A stretch of DNA of 64,000 bases. It comes from Thermomicrobiales bacterium (GTDB lineage Bacteria > Chloroflexota > Chloroflexia > Thermomicrobiales > UBA6265). This document shows, in pieces, positions 54,089-61,741 of the stretch (position 1 is its first letter; each line of letters opens with the position of its first letter). Both the position numbers and the translations under genes were made by a program. The stretch lies in NCBI GenBank assembly GCA_020432165.1, contig JAGQGU010000010.1, positions 1 through 64,000 on the forward strand. Reading direction: 5' to 3'. Below the pieces are notes generated by a model. It was not told where the DNA came from. It was given only the letters and a program-made list of their open reading frames with translations, and made no database searches.

Positions 54089-54167
54089 CGCGCAATATGT
54101 GCGGTGACTGCCGAAGGCAGAAGATGGTCATGGACAACTACTAATGAACGAAGCTTCGCTTCGTGGT

Positions 54168-54398
54168 CGCCCACTAGGGGCGACGCTACCGTGATTCTCC
54201 CAAGGCGTAGCCCCGGGGTTTATCCCCGGGGATCGGGTCACGATGATTCCATCCCAGGCGTAGCCCCAGGGTTTATCCCTGGGGATCGGGCCGTGATGAT
54301 TCCATCCCGGGCGTAGCCCCGGGGATCCTGGTCGCCCACAAGGGGCGACGCAACCGTGACTCTCCCAATGCGTAGCCCCGGGGTTTATCCCCGGGGTG
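54168..54398. repeat. Cluster of palindromic repeats: four GTAGCCCCGGGG hairpins and two GTCGCCC hairpins
   Basis: Type 1 hairpins lie at 54209-54233, 54262-54286, 54315-54330 (truncated) and 54374-54398; the second has a compensating pair (CCCCAGGG/CCCTGGGG). GTCGCCCACTAGGGGCGAC (54168-54186) and GTCGCCCACAAGGGGCGAC (54333-54351) are near-copies. Spacers such as GATGATTCCATCCC repeat too, so the array grew by tandem duplication. The 410-bp gap between the mannosyltransferase and rad50-like genes holds no gene. Confidence 0.85.
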
Positions 54399-54498
54399 GG
54401 TTGGGCCTTGTCGCCCTCACCAGATAATGCCACAACCACCACCGTCATGCTTCGGTCGCGCCTGTCGCCGTTTCCTCAGGATGACGCAGGGTCATCCG

Positions 54499-57303
54499 TC
54501 ATATCTCCCCGATATCCGTGCCGACGCCAACGGTCTCCAATCGGCTGATCCCGTCTGCGGTCTCCTTCACTTGCCAGATCTCGTCCAGAATAGGTGAGGT
54601 CCGAATGTCATCGACATGACTGATGATGAAGACCTGTTGGAACTGATCGTTCGCATTCGTGATCGTGCCCAACATCTCCAGCAAACGTTGACGCCGTTCC
54701 AGATCGAGCGAGCCGAAAACCTCATCGAGTACCAGGAATCCTGGCGGTGTCGCGCTCGCACCCCCAATAACCCGACTCAGCGCAATCCGCGAGCAGAGCG
54801 CAATCGCATCGCGTTCGCCGCCAGAAAATGTCTCATACGGATACTTCTCATCATCACCGTCATATACCTGAATCGAGAAGTTGTTGTCGAACTCCACCCG
54901 ATCATATTTGCCATCGGTAACCTGACTGACCAGATCGCTCGTGATTTCGCTCAGCTTTGGTGCATACCAGGCGGCTGCATATTTCTCGAACTCGCTGAAC
55001 TCGCGGTACATCTGATCGAGGTCGTCGGCTTCCCGCCGCTTCGCCTCCGCCGTCTTCGCCAGTTCTTCGAGGCGTGTCTTGTCTTCCTGAATGCGATTAC
55101 GCATGTGTTCGACTTCACGCAAGCTAGTCTGCTGGGCATAGTGCTGCTGGGTGGCAATGCGTTCCTGCTCCAATGCGGCCGCGTTGGCTGATTGCGCTGC
55201 GAGCAATGTGGAGGGATCGTACCCAAGTTGCTGCCGTTGTGCCTGCAATACCTGCATCTGCTGCGACGTCTCGGCGGCGATCTGGGCGGATTGCGCGCGT
55301 GCGCGCTCGGTGGCGTCTCTCGTTGCCAGATCGCGATCGATTTGCAGGATGGTTGTCCTTGCGGCCTGCGCTTCCTGCAGTTGCGCGATGACCGTGTGAT
55401 GCTCGGCCTCGTTGTACGTGGCATCGGCCAGCGTTTGCAGCTCAGCGTCCAGAGAGGCGCGCTCTGCCGCGATTTGAGCGAGTTTCTGCTGTTCTCGCGC
55501 GACGATGGCACTGGCATCGACAATCTTGCGCCATGCAACCAGTGTGCGCTGGGCAGATTCTCGTTGCTGTAGAGTGGGAACCTCGCGCAGTCCGGTGGCT
55601 TTCAGCGTCTCCTGCAGTTCATTCTCCACAGTGCGGACCGTTGCCTGCTGATCCTCGACATAGCGATGTCCGGTTTCCAGCGAGTTCACGATCTGCGCGA
55701 TCTTCTGGGCAGCTTCAGCAAGTTGCGTGCGCTGCCGTTGCAGATCGGTCACGTCCCGGTTATTGGCTTGCAGCTGAACATCGATCGCCTGAATATGTTG
55801 CTTGTGATCGGCAATTTCGCGACGGAAGACCTCCGTGACATGGGCAGTATCGGCGGCCGTGAAAGGTCGCTGACACGTCGGACAGACTTCGCCCTCGTGC
55901 TGATGCTCAAGGTTCTGGAGGATGCGCTCACTGCGCTGAAGATCGCTGGCATAACGTTTGCGAGTACTCTCGGCGGCGGCCGTACTTGCTTGCAGTTCGG
56001 AGATACGCGTATCAATGGCGACCAACTGCTCGGTTGGATCCCCATTCGCGACAGCCTGCGAGTATTGTTGTTGAAGCTCTTCCACCCGTTTCAGAAAGGC
56101 GTTCAGCCGCGACTGTTCGGACTTCGTCTTCTCACCAAAATCAATCGTGGCGTCGATCGCAGCGACTTGTGCCTCGTGCGCGGCCAGATCAATGCTCTGC
56201 GTCCAGGTGATAGCGGCATTGATATCCGTTGCGGACCAGACTGGATTGCCATCTGGCGCCGGGGAAGTGTCGATAGCCTGTTGTATTGATGCCTGCGCAT
56301 CCCGCTCACGCAGATTGAGTCCGTGAATGTGCTGATCAAGTTCGCGTTTCCGTTGCGCCGCCTGGCGCTGGGCAGTGAACGCCTTGTCTCGTTCTACCAA
56401 ATCCGGTGTCTTCTCCGCGACGAACATGAGTTGATCGCGTTGACGCTCGGCGTTGGTAAGGCGGGCTAACTCCTGAGTGGCATTGGCCTCGCGTTGTACA
56501 GCGAGATCATGCTCACGCTGCTTCTGCATCAGTTGTTGGTTCAGCACCGCATCCTGATCGCGCAGCTGTTCGATAGCGGATAGCGCTGCCTGCGCTGATT
56601 GCACACCGTTTTTGGCGTGAAGCACCGCCTCGTTTGACATTGCCATCGCCCGACCGGCCTCGGCAATCGTTGTCTCGGCTACCTTTAACTCTTCGCTGAA
56701 ATCCCGGTCCCGAGCTTGCTCTTCGCTGAGATTGAGATAGCTGCGAGCATCCGACTGCGCGCGCTTGCGTTCCTCGGCGATGAGCTCTTGGGCCTGGCGG
56801 ATCGTCTCCAGGCCGAGCAGCTTGCCGACCTCGCGCCGCCGTGTTGTGGGCGAGCCGTTGAAGAAACCCAACTCTTTCTGACGGGTGAAGAAGGTGGCGA
56901 CGAATGCAGTGTGATCGAGTCCGATGAGATTGTTCGCGACGTACTGGGTGACTTGCGGCGCGCCATCGACGATCTTCTCCTCGTCGCCGTTGGCATCGCG
57001 CCGATAGATCCGTGCCTTGGCGGCACCCTTCCCGAGTTCGCGTTCGACGGTGTACTGGATACCCGTTGCCGGATCGTTGATCGTTACCGCCACCATCGTA
57101 TTGCCACGCCAGGTACGCGGACGCACGTCGGCAGCCTTGATGGTCGATGGCGAGTAGAGCGCCCACTCGATAGCCTCAAAGAGCGTGGTTTTGCCGACGC
57201 CGTTGGTGCCGATCACTCCAATCGTGCCCGCCTGGGGTATCTCTATCTCCTGGCTGCCGCCATATTGCTTGTAGTTGATGATCTGCACCTTGCTGAGGAT
57301 CAT
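54499..57303 (-). CDS. Rad50/SbcC-type SMC ATPase
   Basis: The 934-residue SMC-like ATPase pairs with Mre11 in DNA-end processing. Walker A is GTNGVGKTT (residues 32-40), a coiled coil covers about 180-790 with a zinc-hook CPTC near residue 473 at its tip, the signature is TFSGGERDAIALCSR (about 822) and Walker B is FLVLDEVFGSLD (about 853). Length is near that of archaeal Rad50 (about 880-900) and shorter than E. coli SbcC (1048). Its start overlaps the mre11-like stop by 4 bp, and it is the last gene of the nurA-herA-mre11-rad50 operon. Confidence 0.93.
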   Translation of the reverse strand: MILSKVQIINYKQYGGSQEIEIPQAGTIGVIGTNGVGKTTLFEAIEWALYSPSTIKAADVRPRTWRGNTMVAVTINDPATGIQYTVERELGKGAAKARIYRRDANGDEEKIVDGAPQVTQYVANNLIGLDHTAFVATFFTRQKELGFFNGSPTTRRREVGKLLGLETIRQAQELIAEERKRAQSDARSYLNLSEEQARDRDFSEELKVAETTIAEAGRAMAMSNEAVLHAKNGVQSAQAALSAIEQLRDQDAVLNQQLMQKQREHDLAVQREANATQELARLTNAERQRDQLMFVAEKTPDLVERDKAFTAQRQAAQRKRELDQHIHGLNLRERDAQASIQQAIDTSPAPDGNPVWSATDINAAITWTQSIDLAAHEAQVAAIDATIDFGEKTKSEQSRLNAFLKRVEELQQQYSQAVANGDPTEQLVAIDTRISELQASTAAAESTRKRYASDLQRSERILQNLEHQHEGEVCPTCQRPFTAADTAHVTEVFRREIADHKQHIQAIDVQLQANNRDVTDLQRQRTQLAEAAQKIAQIVNSLETGHRYVEDQQATVRTVENELQETLKATGLREVPTLQQRESAQRTLVAWRKIVDASAIVAREQQKLAQIAAERASLDAELQTLADATYNEAEHHTVIAQLQEAQAARTTILQIDRDLATRDATERARAQSAQIAAETSQQMQVLQAQRQQLGYDPSTLLAAQSANAAALEQERIATQQHYAQQTSLREVEHMRNRIQEDKTRLEELAKTAEAKRREADDLDQMYREFSEFEKYAAAWYAPKLSEITSDLVSQVTDGKYDRVEFDNNFSIQVYDGDDEKYPYETFSGGERDAIALCSRIALSRVIGGASATPPGFLVLDEVFGSLDLERRQRLLEMLGTITNANDQFQQVFIISHVDDIRTSPILDEIWQVKETADGISRLETVGVGTDIGEI

Positions 57304-58520
57304 CCTTCATCCTCCGGTGCGATTGTGGCAGCTGCGGCGATCGCTTCCTGCAGCGCGAGATCGCCTCGTTTCAGGAAGACTTCCGCGAAGCGATCATTGA
57401 AGGCATCACCCTTGCGATGCTCCACAAATTGGGCGAAGAGTTCGCGGAGATCGGGGAACTCCAGATCAACATCGACCTTCTCGCCCGGTAACGGTTGCTG
57501 TTTTTGCTCAGCCGGAATCGTTAGATGCCAGATGGTGTCAGTGAGTTCCCGCCGCAGAATGGATTCCGCTTCGCGCTTGTCGCCACGCTCGGCATTGAAG
57601 ATGCGTGCCCGTACCATGGCTTGCTGTTTTGTGGCGGCATCCTCCGGGAGTCGTTCGATCTTGCGGAGGACTTCATCCGCGATCTCACGCCCACGCATGT
57701 TTTCTGCATAGGTAATCTTCAGGTCGAGCATGGGGCGAGCGTGTGGATAGAGCACCGGCTCGACAGATGGCGCTTCCCCCATACCAGGGAGAGTCACCAT
57801 CATGTAACCTGGTTCTGCCTCGAAATCCCCCCAGCCGTTGCGTTCGGTGCTACCGGCATACCAACCATTGGTGATACCCGGCGGCTGCATGCGCAGGTGG
57901 TAGTGGCCGAGTGCGATGTAGTCGAATCCGGTATCCAGCAGACTCCGGTCCAGTTCCTCCTCGCCGGGTTCGGCGTGTTTGCCGGGGTCGAGAATGCCCT
58001 TCACCATGCCGTGAATCACCATGATGTTCAACTTGTTCGGGTAGATCGAGGGAAAGGCGGGATTCTCCGGATTCGTCAGCGCTCCGTGCGGCACTGCCTG
58101 TATATGCAGGTTCAGATGCGAGAAGGTAGTGATGTCGTGTGCTTCATCATAGCCCGCGTAGAACGTCGTGCGTGGGAGCGCCAGATCGAGTACGGAGTAG
58201 GCACTGCCACCAGTGCGTAGTCGCGGCGTATCGTGGTTACCCGCGATCACCAGGCTCGGGATGCCAGCGTCCTCAATCCGTCGCCACTGTTGGATGAAAT
58301 GGCGCAACGTATGCCAGGTAGGACGGGCGTAGTGGAAGACATCGCCCGCGTGTATCACCGCATCAGGCTGCTGCCTGATGATATCGTCCACGGCCCACTC
58401 GAACGCGCGCTCGAAATCGACTGTGCGCTGGTTACGTCCCGTTTCCGGGTCCTGCTTGTTCAGAGCCCGGTAGCCGAGATGTGTATCTGCGATGTGGGCG
58501 ATGCGAACTGGCTTGCTCAT
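57300..58520 (-). CDS. Mre11/SbcD-type nuclease
   Basis: This is a 406-residue Mn-dependent calcineurin-like nuclease. The phosphoesterase motifs are complete: D12 and H14 in IADTHLGYRAL, D60 in HAGDVFHYARP, N95-H96-D97 in AGNHDTPRL, then HGMVKG and GHYHLRMQPPG. A capping domain and a helical tail for Rad50 binding follow. I chose ATG 58520, which overlaps the herA stop (ATGA) and directly precedes the first beta strand; the frame to 58574 lies inside herA. It works with the downstream Rad50-like protein on DNA ends and hairpins. Confidence 0.93.
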   Translation of the reverse strand: MSKPVRIAHIADTHLGYRALNKQDPETGRNQRTVDFERAFEWAVDDIIRQQPDAVIHAGDVFHYARPTWHTLRHFIQQWRRIEDAGIPSLVIAGNHDTPRLRTGGSAYSVLDLALPRTTFYAGYDEAHDITTFSHLNLHIQAVPHGALTNPENPAFPSIYPNKLNIMVIHGMVKGILDPGKHAEPGEEELDRSLLDTGFDYIALGHYHLRMQPPGITNGWYAGSTERNGWGDFEAEPGYMMVTLPGMGEAPSVEPVLYPHARPMLDLKITYAENMRGREIADEVLRKIERLPEDAATKQQAMVRARIFNAERGDKREAESILRRELTDTIWHLTIPAEQKQQPLPGEKVDVDLEFPDLRELFAQFVEHRKGDAFNDRFAEVFLKRGDLALQEAIAAAATIAPEDEG

Positions 58521-60649
58521 GCGTATCCTTGCGCTGCCTTGTGGGTAGCGATCACGTTCTTCGCATACTCCCATGGCCGTGAGCGTGAGGTGAGATTGCC
58601 CTTGAGGCGCGTGGTGATGGTATCGCAGATGGTCGTTTCATCGGCAAGCTTCAGACCCTCTATTTCTTGCAGGACGCTTGCCTTCGATGGAGCACCATCG
58701 CCCATCAAATCTTTCATGACACGATAGAGCATATCGCCGAGGCGACTCGTTGACGTCGTCTCCGCACCGAAGACGCGCTGCCCCACGATGCCGGGCAGCG
58801 TGGGCGGGAGAGGGAAGGTGCCGAAGAGGGGAGAGCGATAGTGCGCATGGCGAATAAGCAGGCGTCCCTTCGGTAGTCCCAGCAACTCTTGTTTTTGGGT
58901 CTCCGAGATACTGCGGTAGGCAGCGTTGATGATTTCCTCATCGCCAATACGCCCATAGAGGCTCGTGCCGCAGTTCCCCAGCACTTCACCATCGACCTTG
59001 CTGCGGAACTGCTGCGCACCCATCAGCACCACATTCAGGTGGCGACCGCGTGCGGCGATATCGACGAGTGTATCTCTCAGCCCACCTTCGCCACCGGCAG
59101 GGGCGTACTTGTTCAACTCATCGACAAAAATGATGAGCTTGTCTACACCCATATCGGATCCTTCGGCCAGATCCCAGATGCGATTGATAGTGGCAGTAAC
59201 GATCAACTCCTTCGCCACTGAGTTCACTGCACTGATATCCACCACCCGGATTTCGTTGGGCGTGAAACGATTGTCCACCTGGGGCAGGTGTCCGAAATTC
59301 GGTACACCTTCTGTGAGGAGTCCACCGAGCTTGCGCGTTAACCCCTTGAAGCGATTCTCCGCTTTGCGGATCGTGGCACGGTGGTGACCATTCCAGGTGT
59401 CTTCACCAGTGCTGTCGAGTTCGGTGTAGATCTGGTTGAAGAGTTTGTTGAGATCTTCAATCGAGTCGACTCTGCGTTCGCGGAGTTCGTAGATGAAGCC
59501 GAAGAACTTGTCATCCAGATCGGCGAAGCCGAAGACCTTGTGGGGATAGTCGATCGCATCGCGCAGACTCCACGCGATCGGGAAGACGCGATCTGCCTGA
59601 CCATGCTGATGGCGATCCGTATTGAGTGCGGATTTATCGATACGACCGGAGAGATCGACAACGCCATTTGCAGGCGCTGGTGCCATGTTGGGCCGGAACG
59701 GCGCGAAGATATTCACATTGGTGAAGGGTAGGGGTTCCAGACCCAGCGCACGATACGCGGACTGCTGATCGTCGTTGAGCCCCTTCCAGTTAACTGCTTC
59801 ATACGCGGCCGCCGTATCTGGTTCAGGAATCGCTGGTTTATCCAGCCAAAGTAGATCCGGGCCCTTTACATTGAACATCAATGCCGCGACGGTTTTGTCC
59901 TCCTTCGCCAGTGTCTGAAAAATGCTGCTGGTGAGGAAGAGCGCATGGCTCGTTTTGGTGGCGAGACCGCTCTGACCCGTCCAGTTGGCATGGCCAGCCT
60001 CGGGGCCGAGCAAATAATCCTCATCCAGATAGAGTGGCGTCTTCTGGAATTTCTCATGCCCGTACACGTCGAGTTCGATGTTCCCCTCGGCATCACGGAC
60101 GTAGTTACCATTGGTATGCATCAACGCCGGAATGGTGCTGCCGGAAAAGCTATGGACGCCCAGCGCATAGTTGATTGCCTCCGGCGTCGCGAAGTAAACC
60201 GGACCGTTAACCGCCGGACGATTGCTCTGCACATCGTCGCGTAAATGTTTGGTGGCGAGCACATTCACCGTGAAGACGAGGATCTCTGGCCGCTTCGTTG
60301 GTCCGTCCTCCGGTAGCGCGATCTCCAGGCGACGATCGAAGTAGTCGTCGAGAAAGCTGCGCATATCGCTGAACCGGCGTGGTTCATCGACCACACCGAT
60401 CACGGCCGCTTCTTCGCTGAAGGCGACGACGATATGCCCGATATCGAGGGTGAGTGCATCATCAGCTGCCCAGAAATGAAACTGATGGCTACCGGCTGGT
60501 TCTTTCTCGCTGCTAACCACCCGGCCGATTGCGCCAGCATGATGATCGACCAGATCGGTGAAGCGTGGCAGGTTCCAGTTGCTGGTGTTGCGCGGTGTTT
60601 CATCTGCTTGTGATGCGGAGAATATGTCGTCTTCCCAGGTACTTACCAT
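58517..60649 (-). CDS. HerA-like hexameric DNA-translocating ATPase
   Basis: This is a 710-residue FtsK/HerA-superfamily ATPase. The N-terminus (about 30-100) fits a HAS barrel. The P-loop region is atypical, GQSGLATKTSHALFL (about 222-236), having Thr where the last Gly of GxxxxGK[ST] is expected, but keeping Lys-Thr-Ser. Walker B is clear: LIIFVDELNKYAP (about 503-512), followed by DIAARGRHLNVVLMGAQQFRS, the HerA sensor/arginine region. A long insert lies between the two. HerA pumps DNA for the NurA nuclease, which is encoded 9 bp upstream here. It overlaps the mre11-like gene by 4 bp. Confidence 0.88.
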   Translation of the reverse strand: MVSTWEDDIFSASQADETPRNTSNWNLPRFTDLVDHHAGAIGRVVSSEKEPAGSHQFHFWAADDALTLDIGHIVVAFSEEAAVIGVVDEPRRFSDMRSFLDDYFDRRLEIALPEDGPTKRPEILVFTVNVLATKHLRDDVQSNRPAVNGPVYFATPEAINYALGVHSFSGSTIPALMHTNGNYVRDAEGNIELDVYGHEKFQKTPLYLDEDYLLGPEAGHANWTGQSGLATKTSHALFLTSSIFQTLAKEDKTVAALMFNVKGPDLLWLDKPAIPEPDTAAAYEAVNWKGLNDDQQSAYRALGLEPLPFTNVNIFAPFRPNMAPAPANGVVDLSGRIDKSALNTDRHQHGQADRVFPIAWSLRDAIDYPHKVFGFADLDDKFFGFIYELRERRVDSIEDLNKLFNQIYTELDSTGEDTWNGHHRATIRKAENRFKGLTRKLGGLLTEGVPNFGHLPQVDNRFTPNEIRVVDISAVNSVAKELIVTATINRIWDLAEGSDMGVDKLIIFVDELNKYAPAGGEGGLRDTLVDIAARGRHLNVVLMGAQQFRSKVDGEVLGNCGTSLYGRIGDEEIINAAYRSISETQKQELLGLPKGRLLIRHAHYRSPLFGTFPLPPTLPGIVGQRVFGAETTSTSRLGDMLYRVMKDLMGDGAPSKASVLQEIEGLKLADETTICDTITTRLKGNLTSRSRPWEYAKNVIATHKAAQGYA

Positions 60650-60658
60650 TATTTTCTC

Positions 60659-61711
60659 CTACACTGGCCAGCCGGCAGTGATTGCATTGATGCGTTGTTT
60701 CAGCATGCGTTCCAGCAAATGTACGGGATAGAGGAGTGTTGGCCAGCGACTGTCGGCCTTCGGTGTTGGTACGCGCTCTGCCATCAGCCAACTCGCGATC
60801 TCATCGAACTGCTCGGTATCACGATCATCGCCATTGAGTTCGATCCGGATCAAGGCCCGTCGCGCGTCCAGTCCCTCCGATGGCCACATGCGCTGATAGA
60901 AATGTGTGCGGGCACTCGCGCGGCTGGTGGTGCGATAGGCGGTCGTGCGGTGGCCAGCAGGCAGATTGAGGAGCGTTACGGCATCCAGCCCGGCAAGATG
61001 TTGGCCTTGCGGATTCTTGATGAGTCCGATGGCACGAGCCGTATCGATGGCCAGTCGACCATCAATCACGAGCCAATCGTTGCCGGAATCGTGCCGATGA
61101 GCTTCCTCCCACGCGCGCGCGATGGCGAACTCCGCCAGCTCTCGCTGCTTGCCTGCCGTTTCATTGGCGTAGAAGAGTACCTGGTCGTAGATACCTGCGA
61201 TGCGGTGATATTCATCTTCACCGTGGAGGGGATCAATGACTTCCTGTCCGAGATCTTCGAGGATGTCTACGAGTGCGCGAATGTCGCCATTGTTCGTTTG
61301 CTGGGGTACGATCCAGATGAGCGATTCTCGCAGCGATCCCGGTACCAGGTAGCATTCGCCCTGAGCATTCCTCTCCAGCAAGCCAGCGACAGCAATGCTG
61401 ACGACAATCGGTACTACACCGATACGCCAGACCGGCATCGTCTTCTGGCTGCCATCAATGAACCAGCGGAAATGGGTGGCATTCTGACGTGGAATGGATC
61501 GTTGTTCAATGTGGTCGTGTGTGCCCTCGAGATACTCGATCTCTGGCGTATCCGCCAGCTGCTCACCGCCTATTTGCGGCAGCAGGACATCGCTCTCCAA
61601 TGTGCCGGCACGACGCATATCTATCGCCTGCACGCCACTGCGTCGCAAGGCATTCTCAATCCGCTGAACGCGGCTGGAGAGTGTTTCGAATCGGCGCGCA
61701 GTATCGGTCAA
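60659..61711 (-). CDS. NurA-like nuclease
   Basis: This is a 350-residue protein with the NurA pattern: an early Asp-Gly-Ser motif FRWFIDGSQK (D86) followed by a beta strand, and a later LVIDGRL (D217) with AIGLIKNP, then a conserved region around FYQRMWPSEGLDARRALIRI. NurA is a ring-shaped nuclease that works inside the HerA translocase to make 3' single strands. The N-terminal 25 residues form a helix. The start is a TTG at 61711 with AAAGGACG upstream. It is the first gene of the operon, behind a -10 and a GAAC-N4-GTTC palindrome. Confidence 0.8.
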   Translation of the reverse strand: MTDTARRFETLSSRVQRIENALRRSGVQAIDMRRAGTLESDVLLPQIGGEQLADTPEIEYLEGTHDHIEQRSIPRQNATHFRWFIDGSQKTMPVWRIGVVPIVVSIAVAGLLERNAQGECYLVPGSLRESLIWIVPQQTNNGDIRALVDILEDLGQEVIDPLHGEDEYHRIAGIYDQVLFYANETAGKQRELAEFAIARAWEEAHRHDSGNDWLVIDGRLAIDTARAIGLIKNPQGQHLAGLDAVTLLNLPAGHRTTAYRTTSRASARTHFYQRMWPSEGLDARRALIRIELNGDDRDTEQFDEIASWLMAERVPTPKADSRWPTLLYPVHLLERMLKQRINAITAGWPV

Positions 61712-61729: not shown

Positions 61730-61741
61730 GAACACGTGTTC
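61730..61741. promoter_or_regulatory. GAACACGTGTTC palindrome, candidate LexA (SOS) box
   Basis: On the minus strand the site reads C-GAAC-ACGT-GTTC-T. It matches the Gram-positive LexA consensus CGAACRNRYGTTYG at 13 of 14 positions. It lies just after the predicted transcript start of the nurA operon, where bound LexA would block transcription. No lexA gene is in the window. Confidence 0.65.

Follow-up and report, generated by a model that had tools for sequence, protein, structure and literature searches.

A conserved nurA-herA-mre11-rad50 operon under predicted LexA/SOS control as a candidate double-strand-break processing unit in a Chloroflexota family

We analysed a 64,000-nucleotide stretch of DNA from a Thermomicrobiales bacterium (contig JAGQGU010000010.1, positions 1 to 64,000; hereafter the window), in which four intact open reading frames between positions 54499 and 61711 lie on the minus strand in the order nurA-herA-mre11-rad50. 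The host genome is a metagenome-assembled genome (MAG) of 3.2 Mb that is 98% complete. The genes nurA and argH are divergent, and a predicted LexA/SOS box is located between the two. The features of the locus are listed below in the order in which the operon would be read.

61730-61741, no strand: predicted LexA/SOS box GAACACGTGTTC, 18 bp ahead of the nurA start codon
60659-61711, minus strand: nurA, divergent NurA nuclease of the Deinococcus radiodurans type, 350 amino acids, TTG start, assigned with a family profile
58517-60649, minus strand: herA, HerA hexameric DNA translocase (function by homology) of the D. radiodurans type, 710 amino acids, assigned by its match to 7f6d_B
57300-58520 (longest open reading frame up to 58574), minus strand: mre11, Mre11/SbcD nuclease, assigned with PF00149, archaeal Mre11 models and motifs
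54499-57303, minus strand: rad50, Rad50/SbcC ATPase, 934 amino acids with a CPTC zinc hook, assigned with the NCBIfam archaeal Rad50 model and motifs

The genes are separated by 9 bp (nurA/herA), -4 bp (herA/mre11) and -4 bp (mre11/rad50, 57300-57303), in agreement with the spacing and single strand given in a first-pass annotation of this DNA, provided that translation of mre11 begins with the ATG at 58520. The herA/mre11 overlap (58517-58520) requires this internal codon, as the longest mre11 frame begins 54 bp earlier, at 58574. The sequence AGGAG, which resembles a ribosome-binding site, precedes herA. Scans for sigma-70 promoters and terminators returned scores no higher than those of shuffled sequence. 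The tight order had also been taken to imply one stoichiometric machine; this goes too far, since the spacing points to co-expression at most.

The identity of the first gene required a family-level search. The NurA protein was not identified by Pfam, NCBIfam or PADLOC scans or matched by a single-sequence PDB search, and PF09376, the profile proposed for checking it, matched neither the protein nor anything else in its own genome. We therefore turn to the homologues gathered from the family and the phylum, whose alignment (A3, 25 rows) gave a profile that matches D. radiodurans NurA (DrNurA; 7f6d_H, E=7.5e-28) and Thermotoga TM1739 (1zup, E=1.8e-13). A profile of the 25 closest NurAs reached only 78% hhalign probability to the Pfam NurA family; with phylum-wide intermediates added, the probability against the PF09376-type NurAs of Chloroflexota was 96.5%, compared to at most 0.5% for HerA, Mre11 and Rad50 controls. 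The catalytic residues are also retained. Mutation of D53, K201 or R309 abolishes the nuclease activity of DrNurA (PMC9960219), and these residues align with D86, K232 and R322 of the window protein; the 25 aligned NurAs have no more than nine invariant columns, and these three belong to them (positions were counted along the A3-7f6d alignment, where chain numbering equals the paper's numbering +20). An AlphaFold2 model built from two sequences only had a predicted local distance difference test score (pLDDT) of 31, too low to judge whether the fold is RNase H-like. A search of viral contigs found no relative.

Because the A3 profile finds both structures and the mutation-tested residues fall in invariant columns, we assign the product of 60659-61711 to the D. 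radiodurans branch of NurA. The first-pass annotation had made its reading of the locus depend on a NurA match by profile or structure, and 7f6d and 1zup supply one. PF09376 matches just two of the 25 members of the wider NurA alignment (best E=0.0004), although 185 of 301 Chloroflexota genomes contain a match above its cut-off. Pfam thus overlooks this branch of NurA, so that surveys undercount it.

HerA was likewise without a match in the Pfam scan but was matched to D. radiodurans HerA (DrHerA; 7f6d_B) in the PDB search at E=2.8e-35. The Walker A motif reads GQSGLATKTS in the window protein and GISGVATKTS in DrHerA, and the Walker B motif DELNKYAP is identical in the two, whereas Walker B is of the EEAH type in the classical HerAs of other Chloroflexota. 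The DrHerA residues K175/T176, K217, D220 and D487/E488, named in PMC9960219, correspond to K232/T233, K262, D265 and D510/E511 of the window HerA and are conserved in the family. These matches place the protein in the D. radiodurans type.

The two downstream products were recognised directly. Mre11 matches PF00149 (Metallophos, 9.1e-13), scores better with archaeal Mre11 models (5.6e-24) than with sbcd (2.8e-16), carries all of the phosphoesterase motifs (DTH, GDVFH, GNHD, GHYH) and is the sole copy detected in its genome. Rad50 favours the NCBIfam archaeal Rad50 model (2e-39) over sbcc (5.7e-14) and contains Walker A, the CPTC zinc hook, the SGGER signature and Walker B (VLDE). Profile, PDB and motif evidence thus upholds all four identities as first proposed. 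The description of the operon as archaeal-style holds for its gene content and for the Mre11 and Rad50 profile scores but not for NurA and HerA, which belong to the bacterial type known from D. radiodurans.

We then considered conservation. A nurA gene was detected in 26 of the 32 genomes of the family, including nine of the ten of high quality, and the four genes are in order at 18 of 21 family loci, the remaining three ending at contig edges. Across a sample of 400 Chloroflexota genomes, 30 encode a D. radiodurans-type HerA (E<1e-90). The 28 of these that lie outside the family comprise 16 with nurA-herA-mre11-rad50, six with nurA-herA alone, one with herA-nurA and five loci cut by contig ends; the four-gene order is therefore present at 16 of 23 readable loci, spanning 12 families by the tool's own labels. 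In a genome of the same taxonomic order (L303, G400), the genes are reversed to herA-nurA, and mre11-rad50 was not found nearby. Because the order is conserved in relatives, the operon is a conserved unit whose arrangement is not due to chance. The complete four-gene form had been put forward as the novelty of the locus; it is instead widespread in Chloroflexota, and it is not new to bacteria, since such an arrangement has already been described for Oceanithermus profundus (PMC5448004). The distribution likewise extends bacterial NurA-HerA beyond the "few bacteria", Deinococcus-Thermus for example, to which PMC9960219 assigns it.

Pairwise distances bear on how the operon was inherited. Those of the four proteins correlate among themselves (rho 0.43-0.72), with RecA (rho 0.58-0.74) and with LexA (rho 0.37-0.53). 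Because they track one another and both of these proteins, the distances fit a core function passed on vertically better than a mobile defence cassette. HerA-nuclease defence systems do exist (discussed in PMC12977600), and weak PADLOC cross-matches to HerA (mad8, 4.6e-06) and Rad50 (LmuB, mad3) could be taken to mean that HerA, a nuclease and an SMC-like ATPase form a horizontally acquired anti-phage cassette. We regard this as extremely improbable: the cross-matches are at domain level only, with none for NurA and none convincing for HerA, the operon is near-universal in the family, and an argininosuccinate lyase gene is its conserved neighbour in many members.

The box upstream of nurA, which the first-pass annotation had overlooked, suggests how the operon may be controlled. 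The window contains a single exact GAAC-N4-GTTC, GAACACGTGTTC; about one per 100 kb is expected there by chance, so this site proves nothing alone. A site with at least seven of eight matches is, however, found upstream of nurA in 24 of 24 distinct family genomes (L001 and L003 counted as one genome), a level reached by 20% of random 430-bp segments. The same kind of box precedes lexA (24/24 loci) and recA (19/19 loci) in the family. With a weight matrix trained on the lexA and recA sites only, 21 of the 24 nurA sites exceed the 95% background, and the window box scores 20.4 bits, compared to 13.0 for the 99% background level. As related genomes are dependent samples, these counts express conservation and not a p-value. 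In the host genome, where lexA is present, a tighter box pattern had 29 matches against three for the reversed control; genes behind such SOS-type sites include lexA, recA, uvrC, a Y-family polymerase and ruvB, as well as those for a UvrD-like helicase and for a beta clamp of DNA polymerase III.

The SOS-type sites at three genes of the host genome (G000) have individual features. The UvrD-like helicase of 694 amino acids is without a nuclease domain (L162:1195-3276, G000 C82) and has its box at C82:40259-40271, about 27 bp upstream. Two adjacent boxes lie upstream of a beta-clamp gene (L254:1721-2857, G000 C92). A frame with a match to an SPP1-type phage portal (6.4e-09; L242:24-1463, G000 C67) stands behind a perfect box and perhaps belongs to a damage-inducible prophage.

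Because the window box sits between divergent genes, the palindrome could in principle serve argH or another regulator, the operon itself being constitutive. The box keeps near nurA (-30 to -174) in relatives where argH is more distant (for example L036, L038, L043 and L044) or was not detected in the vicinity, so that the divergent argH is not sufficient to explain it. It is also of the same site class as the lexA and recA boxes, and we consider this alternative very unlikely.

Other resection enzymes of the host were surveyed with family searches, which did not cover RecC/RecD, RecQ or RecFOR. UvrD-type helicases are represented by PcrA/UvrD (an 813-amino-acid frame) and the 694-amino-acid UvrD-like protein, and PDDEXK_1 occurs once, in a stand-alone frame of 416 amino acids. 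No RecB/AddA/AdnAB-like UvrD-PDDEXK fusion was found in the 98%-complete MAG, which answers the earlier question of whether AddAB exists elsewhere in the genome. The case for absence is strong but not absolute because the genome is a MAG. The searches are able to detect such fusions, since the family member G022 yielded two proteins of about 1030 amino acids that are AdnAB/AddA-like (L163:3941-7033, L164:2413-5508), in addition to its nurA-herA-mre11-rad50 operon. Frames of 1,150-1,500 amino acids with PDDEXK in other relatives were considered as AddAB, and this was rejected for the one scanned (G001), in which the nuclease is fused to an IGHMBP2-like helicase. That protein (L165:4786-9291, G001 C179) has about 1500 amino acids, with a PDDEXK/TM0106-like nuclease at the N-terminus and the helicase at the C-terminus; a G006 frame (L166), similar in size, is perhaps of the same kind.

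The best explanation for the operon is that it is a LexA/SOS-controlled unit for processing double-strand breaks, to which we give a probability of about 0.68. What the present analysis shows directly is the identity of the four genes, their catalytic residues, the conservation of their order, their inheritance together with core genes, and a box of SOS type. We lean slightly towards a wider statement as well, that throughout this Chloroflexota family, most members of which apparently lack RecBCD/AddAB, LexA-controlled NurA-HerA-Mre11-Rad50 would act as an SOS-inducible end-resection machine.

Several points weigh against this explanation. The nurA gene was unmatched in six of the 32 family genomes, which are mostly incomplete MAGs, yet one of them (G016) is 92% complete. 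Beyond the family, only a minority has the box (4/26 above the 99% background). RecJ is present in the host genome and provides another resection route. A D. radiodurans nurA-herA knockout was more resistant to ultraviolet light and mitomycin C (PMC9960219); reduced intermolecular recombination has also been reported, as cited in PMC5448004 and PMC12977600. A 2026 Thermococcus study, in which HerA-NurA cut both strands, argues that the pair may be antiviral and not a resection enzyme (PMC12977600). End resection by HerA-NurA in vivo is openly disputed: beside the paradoxical Deinococcus knockout and the antiviral proposal stands the finding that the pair is essential in Sulfolobus islandicus (PMC4351679).

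The knockout phenotype, the Thermococcus activity and the presence of RecJ are also in keeping with a damage-regulated operon in which NurA-HerA degrades both strands of linear or foreign DNA, leaving no recombinogenic 3' tails, with productive resection left to RecJ. This possibility deserves some weight, but we consider it unlikely given Mre11-Rad50 within the same operon, an SOS-type box common to recA, lexA and uvrC, and the failure to find a RecBCD/AddAB-type enzyme.

For the preferred reading, a SOS-controlled break-processing unit, we infer damage induction, complex assembly, 5'-strand resection and a hand-off from Mre11-Rad50 to HerA-NurA from work on D. radiodurans and archaea. DNA damage would inactivate LexA and derepress the operon. 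Mre11-Rad50 would then bind and open the broken end, and a HerA hexamer with a NurA dimer attached would pump duplex DNA into NurA, which would degrade the 5' strand and leave a 3' tail for RecA. In a genus apparently without RecBCD/AddAB/AdnAB, the operon may be the main processive end-resection machine, beside RecJ.

If the family-wide statement is true, an archaeal-type resection module has been wired into the bacterial SOS response. A HerA-NurA pair locked to Mre11-Rad50, with LexA-type operators like those at recA and lexA and apparently no RecBCD/AddAB, provides independent evidence for a role in DNA damage, and the lineage offers a clean setting in which to test that role. Our search of one literature library found no paper plainly tying HerA-NurA to LexA control, most of the papers being about HerA-NurA alone and leaving aside a Staphylococcus SOS review that names all three terms. 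We count three things as new: SOS control, as predicted here, the NurA branch invisible to Pfam and the spread of that branch in Chloroflexota.

Downstream of the operon, the stretch between rad50 and the next gene (54161-54417) contains three direct repeats of about 53 nucleotides with 72-89% identity and a pair of 71-nucleotide repeats that are 93% identical. Within the 64-kb window, the repeat core GGCGTAGCCCCGGGGTTTATCCCCGGGG is confined to this stretch.

Among known systems, D. radiodurans NurA-HerA (7f6d; PMC9960219) is the best solved relative of both window proteins found by sequence, sharing the HerA Walker motifs (GxSGxATKTS, DELNKYAP) and the NurA catalytic D/K/R. There the genes are described as a herA-nurA pair in a host said to be without Mre11-Rad50 (PMC12977600), whereas the window adds mre11-rad50 and the LexA-type box. 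The arrangement in O. profundus (nurA-hepA, PMC5448004) is a bacterial one of four genes, in which sbcD/sbcC follow the gene for HerA; it belongs to another phylum, the excerpted account mentions no SOS box, and the likeness drawn here is one of gene arrangement. Other Chloroflexota carry PF09376-type NurA near a classical HerA, several with mre11-rad50 nearby, but the EEAH-type Walker B and the Pfam-recognised NurA mark these as a separate lineage. The two lineages can share a genome (for example G181, G103, G318 and G179), with classical NurA and D. radiodurans-type NurA-HerA seen together at L139/L089 (G181), L140 (G103) and L149/L090 (G318).

The nurA-herA-mre11-rad50 operons of archaea such as Sulfolobus and Pyrococcus unite the same four functions, and archaeal models give the window Mre11 and Rad50 higher scores than SbcCD models do; unlike in archaea, the window NurA and HerA are of bacterial type, and the general NurA model PF09376 misses the former. 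Bacterial SbcDC is likewise an Mre11-Rad50 pair with overlapping genes, but the window pair is joined to nurA-herA and is nearer to the archaeal Mre11/Rad50 models.

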